From Terriglobales bacterium (GTDB lineage: Bacteria > Acidobacteriota > Terriglobia > Terriglobales > Acidobacteriaceae): DNA of 34,676 bases. The notes below the pieces were generated by a model. The model did not search any database, had not been told where the DNA came from, and saw only the letters and a program-made list of their open reading frames with translations. Both the position numbers and the translations under genes were made by a program. The stretch spans positions 1 through 34,676 of the forward strand of contig JASHOU010000182.1 of NCBI GenBank assembly GCA_030038475.1, given 5' to 3'. Shown piece by piece: positions 28,407 to 34,676 of this stretch; the stretch's first letter is position 1; every line of letters begins with the position of its first letter.

Positions 28407-30146
28407 ATGAGCTCTACTAAGGCTGCTTCGTCCAGCGAGCTTACGGTAAAACCGGGTGAATCTCGTTCTTCGAACTTCATCCGCGATATTTTCCTGGAGG
28501 ACCTGAAAACCAGGAAATTCGGCGATGCCGTCATCCAGACACGCTTCCCACCTGAGCCCAACGGCTATCTCCATATCGGACATGCCAAAGCGATCTGCCT
28601 GGACTTCGGTTTGGCCGATGAGTTCGCCGGCAAGACCAATTTGCGCTTCGATGACACCAATCCGGAGAAGGAAGAACAGGAATATGTAGACGCGATTAAG
28701 CGGGACGTGCGTTGGCTCGGTTTCGATTGGGAGCGCCTTTGCTATGCCTCGGATTACTTCGACCAGCTTTACCAGTGGGCGATCAAGCTGATCAGAGACG
28801 GCAAGGCTTACGTGGACGATTTGACGGCGGAGGAAATTCGGAAGTATCGCGGCACACTGACAGAACCCGGCAAGGACAGCCCATATCGCAACCGGTCGGT
28901 TGAAGAAAACCTCGACCTTTTCGAACGCATGCAGAAGGGCGAGTTTGCGGATGGCACGCGCGTTCTGCGCGCCAAAATCGACATGGCATCGCCCAACCTC
29001 AACATGCGCGACCCGGTGATGTACCGCATTCTGCGCGCGGAACATCATCGTACAGGGAATAGGTGGTGCATTTATCCGATGTACGACTATGCGCATGGGC
29101 AGTCCGATTCGATCGAGCGCGTTACGCATTCCATGTGCTCGCTCGAATTTGCCGATCACCAGCCCATCTATCGCTGGTTCATCGAACAGTTGGGCATTTT
29201 TCCCTCCCAGCAGATTGAATTCGATCGTCTCAGCCTGACTTATACGCAAATGAGCAAACGTAAGCTGCGGCTGCTGGTCGAGGAAGGCCACGTGCGCGGC
29301 TGGGACGATCCGCGGATGCCGACGCTTTCCGGCATGCGCCGTCTCGGCTACACTCCGGAAGCAATTCGCAACTTTGTGGCTGCTGTCGGCGTCTCGCGCA
29401 CCAACGGAATCGTTGAGTTGGCGATGCTCGAACACTTCGTTCGCGAAGACCTGAACAGGCGCTCCCCACGTGTCATGGCCGTGCTGCGTCCGCTGAGGAT
29501 CGTGATCGACAATTATCCAGAGGGCCAGGTTGAGGAGGTCGAGGCGGTGAATAATCCGGAGGACGAAAACGCCGGCAAGCGCAAGGTTCCATTTTCGAAA
29601 GTACTTTACATCGAGCAGGATGATTTCCGCGAAGATCCGCCTAAGCAGTATTACCGCCTGTCGCCGGGGCGCGAGGTGCGACTGCGCTACGGTTACCTTA
29701 TTACCGCAAAGTCGATGGTGAAGAATGATCGCGGCGAAGTAGTGGAGGTGCACTGCACTTACGACCCGGCGACGCGTGGCGGGAATGCTCCGGATGGGCG
29801 CAAGGTAAAGTCGACGATTCACTGGGTCTCAGCCGAACATGCCATTGACGCCGAAGTGCGCATCTACGACAAGCTCTTTACCAGGGAAGACCCGGATCAG
29901 GTTGAAGAAGGACAGGAGTTCACCGCGAATTTAAACCCGACTTCGTTAGAGATCGTCGCGCGGGCCAAACTCGAGCCGTCGCTGGCGAATGCCACGATCG
30001 GAAACCGTTATCAATTTGAACGACTCGGGTATTTCTGTGTAGATCCGGATTCGAAGCTCGGGCATCCCGTATTTAACCGCACCGTCGCGTTAAAAGATAC
30101 CTGGGCCAAGGTTGAGAAGAAGATCGAGAGAAAAGGCGAGCTGTAG
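28407..30146 (+). CDS. glnS: Glutaminyl-tRNA synthetase
   Basis: Charges tRNA-Gln with glutamine; class I synthetase. 579 residues, normal for the family. After a short N-terminal stretch, [17 protein letters not shown] (about 46-63) is the HIGH motif, then [11 protein letters not shown], and QMSKRKL at about 281-287 is the KMSKS loop. The C-terminal part has two beta-barrel anticodon-binding domains ([54 protein letters not shown]). The start is ATG at 28407, 9 nt after a -10-like TAGAAT and without a Shine-Dalgarno. It is divergent from the rhomboid gene and convergent with the 30190-30795 gene. Its presence means direct Gln-tRNA formation is available. Confidence 0.97.
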
Positions 30147-30189: not shown

Positions 30190-30795
30190 TCACCGGAGTC
30201 GGCCGAAAGTCAACCAACGCACAATCTTTGTGTGTTGACGGAGCTTCAGCCTTCTCGTTGCCGCGTCTACTGCTGTATTGCCAGTTGGCGCTAATAATAT
30301 TCGGTTGTAGTTAGCCTCGAAGTCGGAAATGCTGTACAGATTTTTGGTCTTAACCCCTTGGGATGAGGCCGAGCCTTGACAGGGCGGAACCACTGCGGTG
30401 ATTGCGCCTACAGTTCCTACCACTAAATCAGCCAGCTGGGTGATCTTGGTTTGCGTGCTCGGATCGCTTACCTGTGCGACCTGTAGCACAAGTTGCTGAT
30501 CGGCCTGGTAGGCACTAATCGCTGCTTGTAACTCCTCGCAGATCCCCGGAGCTGACGCAGCCGTGGCTTTCGTAAAGTCAGCGGCCAGCGTCTCTATGTC
30601 CGTGGCGTCACTGTTAATCTTCGCTTCCAGGATCGAGTTCACCGGCTGACCATTGGCGACAGCCACAATTTGCAAAATGTTGATGAGAGCTGGCGCTGCC
30701 GCTGCCAAAATCGAATCGAGCTCAGACACCCAAGCGGTCGAACATGCGATACAGAACAAAGCAAGAGACAGCAAAACGACAAGAGCTTTCCTCAT
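30190..30795 (-). CDS. Putative lipoprotein at the end of a phage-like lysis cassette
   Basis: 201 residues, function unknown. MRKALVVLLSLALFCIACS is a secretion signal and probably a lipoprotein signal (Cys18), though Cys at -3 is unusual. The mature part is helical and Ala/Gln-rich (SILAAAAPALINILQIVAVANG, CEELQAAISAYQADQQLVLQVAQ, ITQLADLVVGTVGAITAVVPPC). The last 20 residues turn basic (LKLRQHTKIVRWLTFGRLR) and overlap a hairpin. The start is ATG at 30795 with GGAG about 9 nt upstream. It follows the holin-like and M15 peptidase genes, so a spanin-like or other lysis-related role is possible but only from position. Convergent with glnS. Confidence 0.7.
   Translation of the reverse strand: MRKALVVLLSLALFCIACSTAWVSELDSILAAAAPALINILQIVAVANGQPVNSILEAKINSDATDIETLAADFTKATAASAPGICEELQAAISAYQADQQLVLQVAQVSDPSTQTKITQLADLVVGTVGAITAVVPPCQGSASSQGVKTKNLYSISDFEANYNRILLAPTGNTAVDAATRRLKLRQHTKIVRWLTFGRLR
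30215..30237. other. 10-bp hairpin in the 3' end of the lipoprotein gene
   Basis: CAACGCACAA (30215-30224) pairs with TTGTGTGTTG (30228-30237) with one G-T, around the loop TCT. It lies within the last codons of the 30190-30795 gene, without a T-tail. It could help end or stabilise the transcript. Confidence 0.45.
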
Positions 30796-30833
30796 AATCG
30801 GTTTCTCCGTGGATTCCGCAGAATCTGAGTGAC

Positions 30834-31019
30834 TTACTTCGAGTTGTCGCGCGCAGCTGGTGAAGGCAGCCAGTGCGCCACGATGACCGCCAGCGGGGTG
30901 ACGATGGCTGCGGCAGTCGCATGGCTAGCCAAAAAAACTGCAATCGCGGGTGTAGCAGCGTTCGCAAGAGTGGTAATCAGGAGCACGACGGTGGGTAAAT
31001 AAACGCTGTATTTAGTCAA
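30834..31019 (-). CDS. 61-residue hydrophobic holin-like protein
   Basis: Small membrane protein with two hydrophobic stretches, YLPTVVLLITTLANAATPAIAVFL and TAAAIVTPLAVIVAHWL, and a short polar end (PSPAARDNSK). Size, topology and position next to a peptidoglycan peptidase gene fit a phage holin, but no holin family signature is recognised. The start is TTG at 31019, firmly supported by AGGAGGT on the minus strand 7 nt upstream (31027-31033). The gap to the next gene is 38 bp, so it is cotranscribed with its neighbours. Confidence 0.65.
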   Translation of the reverse strand: MTKYSVYLPTVVLLITTLANAATPAIAVFLASHATAAAIVTPLAVIVAHWLPSPAARDNSK

Positions 31020-31026
31020 GATAACT

Positions 31027-31033
31027 ACCTCCT
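31027..31033 (-). promoter_or_regulatory. Strong Shine-Dalgarno AGGAGGT deciding a TTG start
   Basis: A consensus ribosome binding site 7 nt before the TTG at 31019. It is one of the strongest in the window and confirms that the small hydrophobic gene is translated. Confidence 0.7.
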
Positions 31034-31080
31034 ATAGTCGCCCTTATATTTACTTAATTGGAAACGCCGCGATAAGCTTG

Positions 31081-31527
31081 TCAAGCTCGAATACCCGGTT
31101 CATAGGGCGATTGTGGCGAGCGCTTGGTGAATGCCTCGCGACGGAAGAATGATCGATCTTCCGCCAAGCCAATGTGCACCCATCCATATTCAAGGATCAG
31201 TTGGTCGTAGTCGAGGTCAGACTTAAGAATGGCATGTGCGACTTCCGCCGGTGTACCAAAGTCCGGGCAAACGAAATCGCAAGCTAAACCGCGACAATGC
31301 GCGCTCGTGGCTGCCCCGCCTACGGCCTGGTTTACTTGCGACGAGCGATAGCCGCTGTGTACGACGATGGGTTTGTTACCGAGCAACGTCCTAATTTTTT
31401 CCATAACATCTGCCACTAATTGTAGGTTAGCCATTATCGGCACGCTGGGACTGTTATCCAGACCGAGGCGTGTGGCAATCGCGGAGTAAGTCATTTCTTC
31501 GAGTGTAAAGTGATCCGTAAGATTCAC
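31081..31527 (-). CDS. M15-family zinc peptidase (D-Ala-D-Ala carboxypeptidase/endolysin-like)
   Basis: 148-residue peptidoglycan peptidase of the M15 (M15A/VanY-like) type often found in phages as an endolysin or tail-associated enzyme. It starts LTDHFTLEEMTYS; conserved residues are SGYRS (58-62), SAHCRGLACD with zinc ligands His77 and Asp84, and ILEYGWVHIG with catalytic Glu113 and ligand His118. There is no signal peptide, so release would need a holin, which fits the 61-residue neighbour downstream. The start is GTG at 31527 with GGAGA about 10 nt upstream. It lies 33 bp after the long beta-helix protein and 61 bp before the holin-like gene, on the same strand. Confidence 0.88.
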   Translation of the reverse strand: MNLTDHFTLEEMTYSAIATRLGLDNSPSVPIMANLQLVADVMEKIRTLLGNKPIVVHSGYRSSQVNQAVGGAATSAHCRGLACDFVCPDFGTPAEVAHAILKSDLDYDQLILEYGWVHIGLAEDRSFFRREAFTKRSPQSPYEPGIRA

Positions 31528-31560
31528 AGTATGTTATCTCCACTAATGGTCGAACGAGAG

Positions 31561-34500
31561 TTAGTCAGGATAAGGCCCATGGGCACCACAGTTAGCTCCG
31601 ACTGGACAGATATATTCCGTTTGCGTCATAACGGTATTGAGTTGTGTCGTGTTGACACCCTGCGTTTGGTAGGAACTGGATCCTACATAGGATATGTCGG
31701 TGAAGGTGAAGTTGCTTGCCCAGGGAAGCGCCATCAGCGGGCAATCGAACGGGTTCGACCCATCATACGTACAGGCTCCAGTGGGATAAGTCATCGCTGG
31801 GTCGGATCCCATGAACGCCACGTAGCCGAGGCAGGTTGGATCAGCGTTGGTTCCCGAGCAGTTTACAGAAACCGGGAACGCATTGGAGCAGCTTCCGCCC
31901 GGGCAGTTTACTACGCTCCAATTGGAAGAGTTTCTGCCGGTGAGGACGTTCTGGTAGAACTCGAACGTGTTGTCGTCCCAACAAGAAAACGAGTCGGTGC
32001 CTTCATATCCTCCTGGCGCTTCGTTGCAGTACACATCGCTGGTGTGCCCGGAATCGTTATCCACGAACACGTTGTTGAACATGTAATTCGAAATCGGCAG
32101 CCAGTCCCCGGTGTAGCTCGTCTGGATGGCAAAAACATTCGGCGCCATGAACGTGTTGTTCTGCAGCGTCGTCCACTTCGGGAAGCCGGCGCCGTTGCTG
32201 ATAATGCAATTTGCGGTAGCCGCAGTGGGCTGCGTGTTAGTCTGATAGGAGACCGTAAGTCCAGTTGTTACCGTGCCACTTACCGCATAAGCCGCTGCGG
32301 TTATCCCAGCGGCGTAGCCGTAAGTCGTGCAGGTTGTGTCTCCGCCGCCAACGTTCGTGGCATTCACGCCGTCGCCGACCGAAATATCGGTCATCTTGTA
32401 GGCGAGCGAGGCTATGGTCACATCACCGGCGTTCAGCAGCGCGCTGCACTTCGGCGAGCCGCTATTGTCGCACAAGGTTGCGGTACCAGGATTGTTGATG
32501 TTGTCGGTATAGGAGATGTACTGCGCCCCCGCGCCCGTGCCGCATCCTGTGCCATCGCTCGCCCAATTGCCGGTGCATCCGGTCATCGCGAACGAGCCGT
32601 TCCATCCGGTGTGATTCGAGATGATGATCGGGCACGTAGTCCAGGAGTTACCGTTCGCAATGCACGTCCCCGAACCGCTGGTCGAGAGCATCGCGTCCGT
32701 GCGCAACCCGTCATAGACGCTCACAACATTTGCAACACTCACAATCTTCGTGATGTTCGACGTGATGTCGTTCTGCTCGGGCAGGCATTGCGCCGTAATC
32801 GTAAAGGGCGCCGAACTGCCGGTATACGACATCGCGCAGGTAAACGTATTCGCTCCCGAAGTCCATTCCCACTCGTGTCCGGGATCGTTGAACTGGTTGG
32901 TATCGGCGATGTTCGAGTACAGGTTGTTGATCCAGTCCACATCCTCGACGGGAAGGCTCACGCCGCCGCCATTGCTCGGTGTTCCCGCGCGGTTCGACTG
33001 CTCCACCGGCTCCGGGCAATTGCGAATCCAGTTGCTCTCGAAGCGGATGTTGTCAATATAGCTGTCGGGCAATCCAGTACCGGGGTTGAAGACTCCGGCC
33101 ATCGCCCCGCCAGACGCTGTGCGCGCGTTGACCAAGATGCAAAAGCCCTGCTGCCCATCCGCCCAGGAGTTCTCAATGATGTTGCCGGCGACCAGGTTCC
33201 TATGCCCGACCTTGATCTCAAACGGATTCTTGATGGCGTAACTGAACGGGCATACGTTGTGCGAAGCCGTGCCGTCCGTAGGCCCGCATCCCCACGGCGG
33301 CGCCGGAGAGTTGCCCGCTCCGCCAGTCAGATACCGGTAGTTCAAATCCTTGCCAAAATAGTTGCGCCGTATCTCGTTATCCGACCCCGGCCCGCCATTC
33401 TGATCCACGGGCGCGCCACCGGAAATAATGGTCTGCTCCGAGCCTTCCAACCAGTTGTTGACGATCTTCAGCGGCCCATTGTCAAAGGCGTAACCCAGCG
33501 CATTCGACTCCCCGCCATAGTTGTGAATCTTCTCCACATAACCATCCATCAACCAGCCATCGTCCACATGAAAGCGGATAGCGTCTTCTACGTCGTCGCC
33601 GCAGCCAACAACTGGCGTGCCCGCGCCATAGACGAAGGAGAACTGGCCAGCAGAGTTTTTCGAGGGAGGATTCGATTCGCTCAAGTTGTAAGTGCCAGCA
33701 GTCGGCACCAGGCCCACGACAATAAACTGCGTGTTCTGCGTCCCGTTCTGCAAGCCCTCGGCGAGCGTGCCATCGTCAAGAATGGTGAAGGTGGTTCCAT
33801 TGATGCTGACCGGCGAGCCGGCGGCAAACGTCATCCCGTAGAAAGTCCCAGTAGACCGAGTAATCAAAGTGTCGCCCGCGAAGCCAGACGGATTCTGGGC
33901 GATCGTCACTGTGCCCGTATTGGTCCACTGCGAGCACGCGCCCGAGGGTTGGCCAGGATCCCCCACATCCCAGCCGTGAATGTAGAAGTGGCGCAACCCC
34001 AATACGTGATCGGCTTGGCAGCCAATACAAGGAACAATCGAGAGCGGATTATCGTTGAAGTCAACCAGTCGAACCGAATCCACTCCCGGCCCGCTCTGCG
34101 CGATGCCCGGAGCCAAAGTCACTTCTACATCGCGCAACTCGATGTGGTTGGCATAGTTCGTGGTCGGCGATTGCAGATCAGCGCCAGCGAAAATCCCAAT
34201 CCTGCCGACCTGATTGTTTCCACCACTGATCTCCACCTTCCACATCGACGCCTTATCATTCGGAGACGAGCAGCCCGGATTTCGCGTTCCTCCCAATCCC
34301 GGCACCCCCCCCTCCACACGCCATGTAGGGCGCTGGCGTCGAAGTTGGGGTAAATACAGCGCCGCTTGTCTGCCCCACCCAGGTGTACATATTGCTCTGC
34401 GAGGGGTAACCATTCATCGGCCCCAGTTGCAGGTCGGTGAAGCTGCCGAGCGAGGCGGTGTTTTGCAACGTGGCCGCCGCTCCGCTCGTCGATTGTTGCA

Positions 34501-34676
34501 CCCGCTCGCCAGTCGAGAAGGTTCCGGACGTTACCGTGCCCGAAACGTTGTAAGACACCAGCGGAGTGGTCGAATCTATGACCAGGCACTTCGTCGGCTC
34601 CGTGCCGGAGTTTACCTTTCCCGGCAGGCTAATGAGCGCGTCATTAGCGTCAAAGGTGGAACCACTTAAAACGGTT
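31561..34676 (-). pseudogene. Large beta-helix/phage-structural-like surface protein, partial and frameshifted
   Basis: Over 1000 residues, running off the right edge of the window (5' end missing). The protein is Gly/Asn/Ser/Thr-rich with repeated short strands (NHIELRDVEV, NNWLEGSEQTIISGG, NEIRRNYFGKD, HRNLVAGNIIENSW, DNIRFESNWIRNC), as in right-handed parallel beta-helix proteins such as tail spikes and pectate-lyase folds. Near its visible N-terminal end, SGTFSTGERVQQSTSGAAATL resembles a motif of phage structural proteins. From the window edge the frame reads TVLSGSTFDANDALISLPG, through PAPYMACGGG, and then breaks. The remaining 920 or so residues continue in another frame from a run of eight G (34305-34312). 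Seven G would restore one frame. It may be a tail fibre or adhesin; the family is not certain. Confidence 0.75.
34305..34312 (-). repeat. Homopolymer G8 tract (C8 on + strand) at a frameshift
   Basis: Eight C on the plus strand. The reading frame before it (from the right edge to about 34313) and after it (down to 31561) are both long, open and alike in composition but differ by one base. Confidence 0.85.

Follow-up and report, generated by a model that had tools for sequence, protein, structure and literature searches.

At one end of a 34,676-nucleotide contig from a Terriglobales bacterium of the family Acidobacteriaceae (GenBank assembly GCA_030038475.1, contig JASHOU010000182.1; this whole stretch is hereafter the window), four minus-strand genes encode a fibre-like protein, an M15 peptidase, a small hydrophobic protein and a probable lipoprotein. 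With a probability of about 0.6, we consider these genes to be the right-hand fibre/lysis arm of a locus of phage origin, acquired by an early member of the Acidobacteriaceae lineage near the host gene sucB and since then inherited mainly vertically, which in intact copies would encode a particle resembling a gene transfer agent (GTA). Comparison with related genomes establishes the phage origin of the locus, its fixed place, its agreement with the host phylogeny, purifying selection on its genes and the conservation of several terminase positions. The window is the entire contig C55 of the source genome (G000; 216 contigs, 4.46 Mb, 98.4% complete), and its fibre gene is cut at the contig end.

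The four-gene arm and the complete locus

The window genes under study and the host gene that borders them are the following.

31561..34676, minus strand: secreted beta-helix/fibre-like protein, N-terminus past the contig end, in two frames (34256-34675 and 31561-34413)
31081..31527, minus strand: M15_3 peptidase of 148 amino acids (aa), predicted phage-type endolysin (PF08291, Peptidase_M15_3, 3.6e-20; phrog_894 endolysin, 4.1e-37)
30834..31019, minus strand: 61-aa protein with two hydrophobic stretches (by eye), AGGAGGT site before a TTG start
30190..30795, minus strand: 201-aa exported protein, probable lipoprotein, with a hydrophobic N-terminus and a Cys common to 14 of 14 relatives compared
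28407..30146, plus strand: glnS, host gene bordering the arm and outside the element; the arm adjoins glnS in relatives too

All four minus-strand genes described in an initial annotation of the window were confirmed, together with their intergenic gaps of 33, 61 and 38 bp. The same annotation had named a signal-less M15 peptidase, which agrees with the two profile matches and with the absence of a signal peptide by inspection; the motifs SAH..D and VHxG, which we take to be catalytic, are kept across 13 aligned sequences, and profile and motif together predict a phage M15 endolysin. It was also right about a hydrophobic 61-residue protein with a strong Shine-Dalgarno sequence, and in placing the small proteins outside holin and spanin families, since neither the 61-aa nor the 201-aa protein matched these or any other family above chance in Pfam or PHROGs. 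A holin-like role for the former and a spanin-like role for the latter are suggested by position. The lipoprotein call is probable: the hydrophobic N-terminus and a conserved Cys, read by eye, speak for it, whereas a strict lipobox pattern gave no match among the relatives, most of which have a non-canonical lipobox with Cys at -3. In five genomes (G016, L051:9634-9966; G006, G012, G018, G022), though not in the window, a protein of ~110 aa is encoded between the 61-aa and lipoprotein genes; its N-terminal hydrophobic stretch and charged tail recall the layout of an inner-membrane spanin, and it has no Pfam match.

The two fibre frames join at a run of eight C (plus strand, from 34305), and relatives align across both, the break being either a true frameshift or a homopolymer error. 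No Pfam or PHROG family matched the fibre above chance. Its probable N-terminal part, with a Sec-type signal peptide by inspection, opens another contig of the source genome (C204); such a signal would be unusual in the tail spike of a virion. Antisense to the fibre gene there is an open frame of 947 aa (window 31510-34353, plus strand), probably a codon-bias shadow. As for base composition, which the initial annotation had judged more AT-rich than glnS (guanine-plus-cytosine content 0.556), this is true of the M15 (0.526) and lipoprotein (0.533) genes and untrue of the 61-aa gene (0.565) and the fibre (0.577).

The arm was searched for in 60 relatives and in the source genome. Close M15 matches (57-71% identity) were found in 12 other genomes of the genus and the lipoprotein in the same 12 and in two further genera, a co-occurrence that argues against a chance arrangement of the four genes; eight more genomes gave weak, partial M15 matches alone. 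On contigs of sufficient length the arm sits between glnS and sucB, with a phage head-tail module, or the scar of its deletion, on the far side of sucB. The locus of one relative, G007, spans ~31 kb with sucB inside, and supplies the gene order below, except for the leftmost gene, which was taken from relatives of G007.

Left end: S24-peptidase regulator (weak helix-turn-helix match); 75-aa protein; sigma-region-4 protein; dual-specificity phosphatase
Next: ~1900-aa protein with BppL_N repeats; beta-helix protein; terminase (phrog_2, 1.8e-31); HipA-like protein; DUF3037-S24 proteins
Next: portal (PF04860, 1.6e-41); 187-aa and 143-aa proteins; 323-aa capsid candidate; head-tail adaptor (phrog_442, 5.6e-12)
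Next: 115-, 172-, 325- and 781-aa proteins; 78-aa protein
Right end: sucB (opposite strand); fibre; M15 peptidase; 61-aa protein; lipoprotein; papain-type peptidase (phrog_16701)

The window has no papain-type peptidase next to glnS. A tail-tube fold is assigned to the 325-aa protein, whose 16 best PDB matches are all entries for tail tubes or for other tail, neck or connector parts (best 5.1e-9; model of moderate quality, predicted local distance difference test, pLDDT, 65). At several terminase positions, including KARQxG, at least 95% of 48 sequences agree; we presume that these positions comprise the nuclease acids and, in KARQxG, a variant of Walker A. No integrase or replication family rose above chance among the 24 proteins scanned with Pfam and PHROGs, a result that leaves room for such functions in the family-less proteins. 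Two large left-arm proteins start with signal-like sequences. Within the phage module, next to a HipA-like protein, stand two copies of a protein in which DUF3037 is fused to a LexA-type S24 domain (L060:14399-15172; G007:C42:22282-23085), an unusual arrangement and a possible control switch.

Profile searches of the PDB yielded nothing of use, one giving no match and two others a single chance-level match each. No sequence family matched the 323-aa protein. Its AlphaFold model is poor (pLDDT 46), and in Foldseek this model retrieved two encapsulin entries (4.2e-4 and 5.0e-4) followed mostly by phage capsids at E > 0.01, which is suggestive only. We take it as the putative capsid protein from its position, its conservation and this weak fold match, and refer to it below as the capsid.

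Distribution, inheritance and selection

A scan of genome contigs confirmed 203 relatives of the capsid, 80 of which (73-100% identical) underlie the locus counts given here. Titles of the capsid-bearing loci mostly name Acidobacteriaceae or Acidobacteria; two environmental bins with the capsid are labelled Verrucomicrobia and Rhodanobacteraceae (L125, L138) and are probably misbinned or mislabelled. The capsid was present in 43 of 120 relatives' genomes. In a draw across the phylum it occurred in 34 of 396 genomes, that is, in 34 of 44 family members and none of 352 others; with a wider profile, a draw across the order gave 179 of 298 genomes and 46 of 70 genera, and the positives listed all belong to Acidobacteriaceae. 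Each positive genome of the latter draw had a single match, except for two with two (G696, G700).

The genes are endogenized: they are chromosomal, with no integrase recognised, and tend to stand near sucB. Among 14 named genomes, the distance between sucB and the capsid gene was 6-22 kb on a shared contig in 10 and ~57 and ~145 kb in two, and the remaining two had sucB on another contig. sucB is found within 32 of the 80 loci. Thirteen loci with the regulator have an alternative gene order, the capsid block lying left of the terminase; four genomes with this order, read over a longer stretch, all had the portal and the tail protein, and sucB came next in three. Grouping the flanking genes into families by all-against-all blast proved unusable owing to noise from shadow open reading frames.

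Inheritance was analysed in 23 genomes of 20 genera in which both the capsid and RpoB (C-terminal part) were present. Distances of the two proteins correlate (Mantel r 0.64, exceeded in 0 of 5000 permutations), with identities of 72-96% for the capsid and 80-98% for RpoB, the capsid being only slightly the more variable of the two. A tree of four concatenated head proteins, two of which were available from only 21 and 16 of the 23 genomes, has 10 of 20 splits in common with RpoB (permuted mean 0.13, maximum 3), and its six strong splits, at a support threshold slightly looser than that of the capsid-only tree, all agree. The head genes have been inherited mainly vertically and have co-diversified with the host, a signal that is weaker by the capsid alone.

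Ratios of non-synonymous to synonymous substitution (dN/dS) were taken within the genus as medians over pairs with dS < 2. They are 0.072 for the capsid, 0.086 for the portal and 0.10-0.15 for the smaller head/tail genes, as compared with 0.087 and 0.063 for the host genes sucB and glnS, and the head genes are under purifying selection. Values for the arm are 0.166 (M15), 0.137 (61-aa protein, 13 sequences) and 0.142 (lipoprotein), and for the ~1900-aa gene 0.167 (3 pairs); the single usable terminase pair gave 0.231.

The source genome lacks much of the locus. Neither the capsid (in three genome draws) nor the terminase or portal was found in G000, whose contig C204 carries the other side of the locus: sucB, a 361-aa-type gene, a fusion gene and then the phosphatase, sigma-like and 75-aa proteins. 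The fusion gene combines, in one frame, the start of the ~1900-aa protein with the end of the 78-aa protein, and we read it as a deletion scar. A head module on another contig of G000 was ruled out by this scar and by the absence of terminase, portal and capsid from a 98.4% complete genome. The ends of C204 and C55 overlap by eight bases, in frame within the fibre, and the two contigs probably meet in that gene, eight bases being weak proof. The window copy is therefore most likely a remnant arm that has lost its head-tail module and would make no particle. In G009 the deletion lies on one contig and has a left breakpoint different from that in G000. In both genomes (G000, L276:2900-4000; G009, C10:155109-156254) the left gene continues in frame into the end of one and the same protein, the 78-aa coiled-coil/membrane protein, by chance or as a kept function.

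Of 24 genomes of the genus, 10 contain the capsid and 13 the M15 arm, and in six of these 13 (G000, G003, G005, G006, G008, G009) the capsid was not seen, in some perhaps from incompleteness (three are 71-83% complete). The arm genes of these six have median dN/dS of 0.10-0.19, which may mean that the arm has a function independent of the particle or that the loss is recent; pairwise values are compatible with both. The initial annotation had held that an absence of phage structural genes nearby and a failure of the four genes to co-occur in related genomes would speak against its proposal: terminase, portal and capsid are indeed missing from G000, whereas M15 and lipoprotein stand together in the 12 other genomes. 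Its suggestion of a phage-derived, possibly domesticated GTA-like system gains from the terminase, portal, capsid-like and tail genes beyond sucB in relatives and from the fit of the locus to the host phylogeny.

Phage relatives and alternative explanations

Among 50,697 phage records none matched the capsid, and 14 matched the portal at 20-28% identity. IMG/VR holds close capsid copies with the same gene order, as well as distant ones (48-66% identity), the contigs of which reach 214 kb. In one of these (L209; 124,662 bases) the capsid is 55% and the portal 41% identical, and adaptor and tail-tube-like protein are related. L209 also encodes a 1390-aa tape-measure protein (phrog_8462, 1e-22) where the domesticated locus of G007 has 142 bp between the matching genes; a phage like L209 is a plausible ancestor. 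Three other IMG/VR contigs (L203, L204, L205; 74-214 kb) have a capsid 65-66% identical and no other element gene in the 21 kb examined, possibly through exchange of the capsid gene. A scan of IMG/VR with M15 turned up seven loci in which a related endolysin is present without any further gene of the element.

The element has been described before as a prophage. In the available part of Eichorst 2018 (PMC5900883), prophage 'Cluster 153' includes Terriglobus roseus NC_018014 at 150-180 kb and KBS 89 scaffold 5 at 60-90 kb; our loci L112 (T. roseus) and L134 (KBS 89) fall in those intervals and are the same element. That part of the article reports no prophage in KBS 146, unlike our result, as locus L121 of this strain holds the element. 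The accessible text of a 2025 paper (PMC11924767) describes 'group (ii)' Terriglobales proviruses similar to that of Koribacter Ellin345, a Cluster 153 member; through this likeness alone they are probably the same element. The capsid had no match beyond the family, so the Koribacter copy has diverged too far, is something different or was missed by the draws. As far as the text of these papers goes, the label is prophage or provirus, and what we add is the vertical inheritance, the fixed place and the selection.

In intact copies, S24-type regulators and the sigma-like protein would switch on the head and tail genes, the terminase would pack DNA through the portal into tailed capsids, and the M15 endolysin with the small membrane proteins would lyse the cell. 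Host DNA is the likeliest cargo, given that no replication or integration gene is recognised and yet a terminase is kept.

Several results weigh against this interpretation. The M15 arm is largely confined to a single genus, in which three genomes with the capsid (G002, G010, G021) have no close M15. A strict Walker A pattern matched none of 49 terminases, no tape-measure family was found among the locus proteins scanned, and the capsid is identified by its position and by a poor model whose fold match is weak. The capsid-only tree has 4 of 20 splits in common with RpoB (permuted maximum 2) and one strong conflict. Eight gene copies were excluded from dN/dS for stops inside the alignment, two terminases contain a TGA and the portal of G002 is split; some copies either decay or are misassembled.

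An active temperate phage restricted to the family and misread as domesticated would fit the published prophage label, 'active' by gene content in the parts of those papers available, and the near copies in IMG/VR. We regard it as highly improbable in view of the missing capsid match among phage records, the lack of a recognised integrase or replication family in 24 proteins, the single copy, the fixed place and the host-like divergence. The active prophage edge, an option raised by the initial annotation, was ruled out by the vertical inheritance and by the lack of a recognised integrase among those proteins. That all carriers hold a functionless, decaying prophage remnant is also very unlikely, since dN/dS is low across the element genes and carriers occur in 46 of 70 genera of the order draw; the head genes not found in G000 and several relatives, the stops in some copies and the fibre frame break are what such decay would produce. 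It is somewhat less improbable, if still unlikely, that the arm is an independent host module, working on the cell surface or wall, and merely neighbours the phage locus. Signal-like starts on the fibre and on the two large left-arm proteins, a distribution mainly in one genus and retention in capsid-less genomes at low dN/dS all suit a host module; it is opposed by the membership of the M15 and papain-type proteins in phage families and by lipoprotein relatives beside element genes in other genera (G028, G029; L086, L113, L119).

The remaining explanation is a domesticated killer particle of the PBSX type. Such defective phages are phage-derived and vertically inherited, pack host DNA, kill relatives without them and deliver no genes; here the packed host DNA would be random. 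The same genomic evidence fits, as do the variable, large secreted or fibre-like proteins and the S24 regulators. No immunity gene was identified, no evidence separates a PBSX-type particle from a GTA, and we hold the former unlikely.

Comparison with gene transfer agents and related particles

Tailocins are particles without capsid, portal and terminase; the initial annotation had offered one as an option, and it was ruled out by the presence of all three genes in intact copies. A PBSX-type particle, likened by description, would share the genomic profile of the locus. We favour the GTA as the best reading, with the PBSX-type particle as its main rival; packaging and transfer are predicted from the genomic profile. 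In its broader form the proposal is tentative, and slightly more likely wrong than right: Acidobacteriaceae would carry an independently domesticated GTA of their own, in well over half of the genomes drawn, with S24/sigma-like control, a tail without recognisable tape measure and exchangeable lysis arms, and some lineages, including that of the source genome, would have dropped the particle and kept the arm.

Our literature search, which scarcely covered subscription journals, found no paper on a GTA in Acidobacteriota. If the proposal is true, a GTA lineage is added in a phylum in which that search had found none. Should particles be made by intact copies, what has been classed as an ordinary prophage would give a widespread family of soil bacteria its own means of moving genes, or of killing rivals. 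The prediction can be tested directly, since Terriglobus roseus, Edaphobacter modestus and Granulicella aggregans are carriers in culture.

The available part of Kogay 2022 (PMC9662315) names three recognised families, Rhodo-, Barto- and Brachygtaviriformidae, and provides six GTA features, used here as criteria: descent of the particle proteins from tailed phages, packing of host DNA that is mostly random, complete endogenization, inability to pack all of the agent's own genes, vertical inheritance with co-diversification, and transfer of the cargo to other cells. With respect to the origin of particle proteins, those of intact relatives derive from tailed phages (terminase, portal, adaptor and endolysin families; tail-tube fold), G000 keeping the endolysin arm alone. 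Unlike recognised GTAs, the locus resides in another host phylum and has no recognised tape measure. Like them, as far as the available text describes them, it consists of phage-derived head-tail genes that are fixed in the host, co-diversify with it and evolve slowly, the locus being known here from its genes alone.

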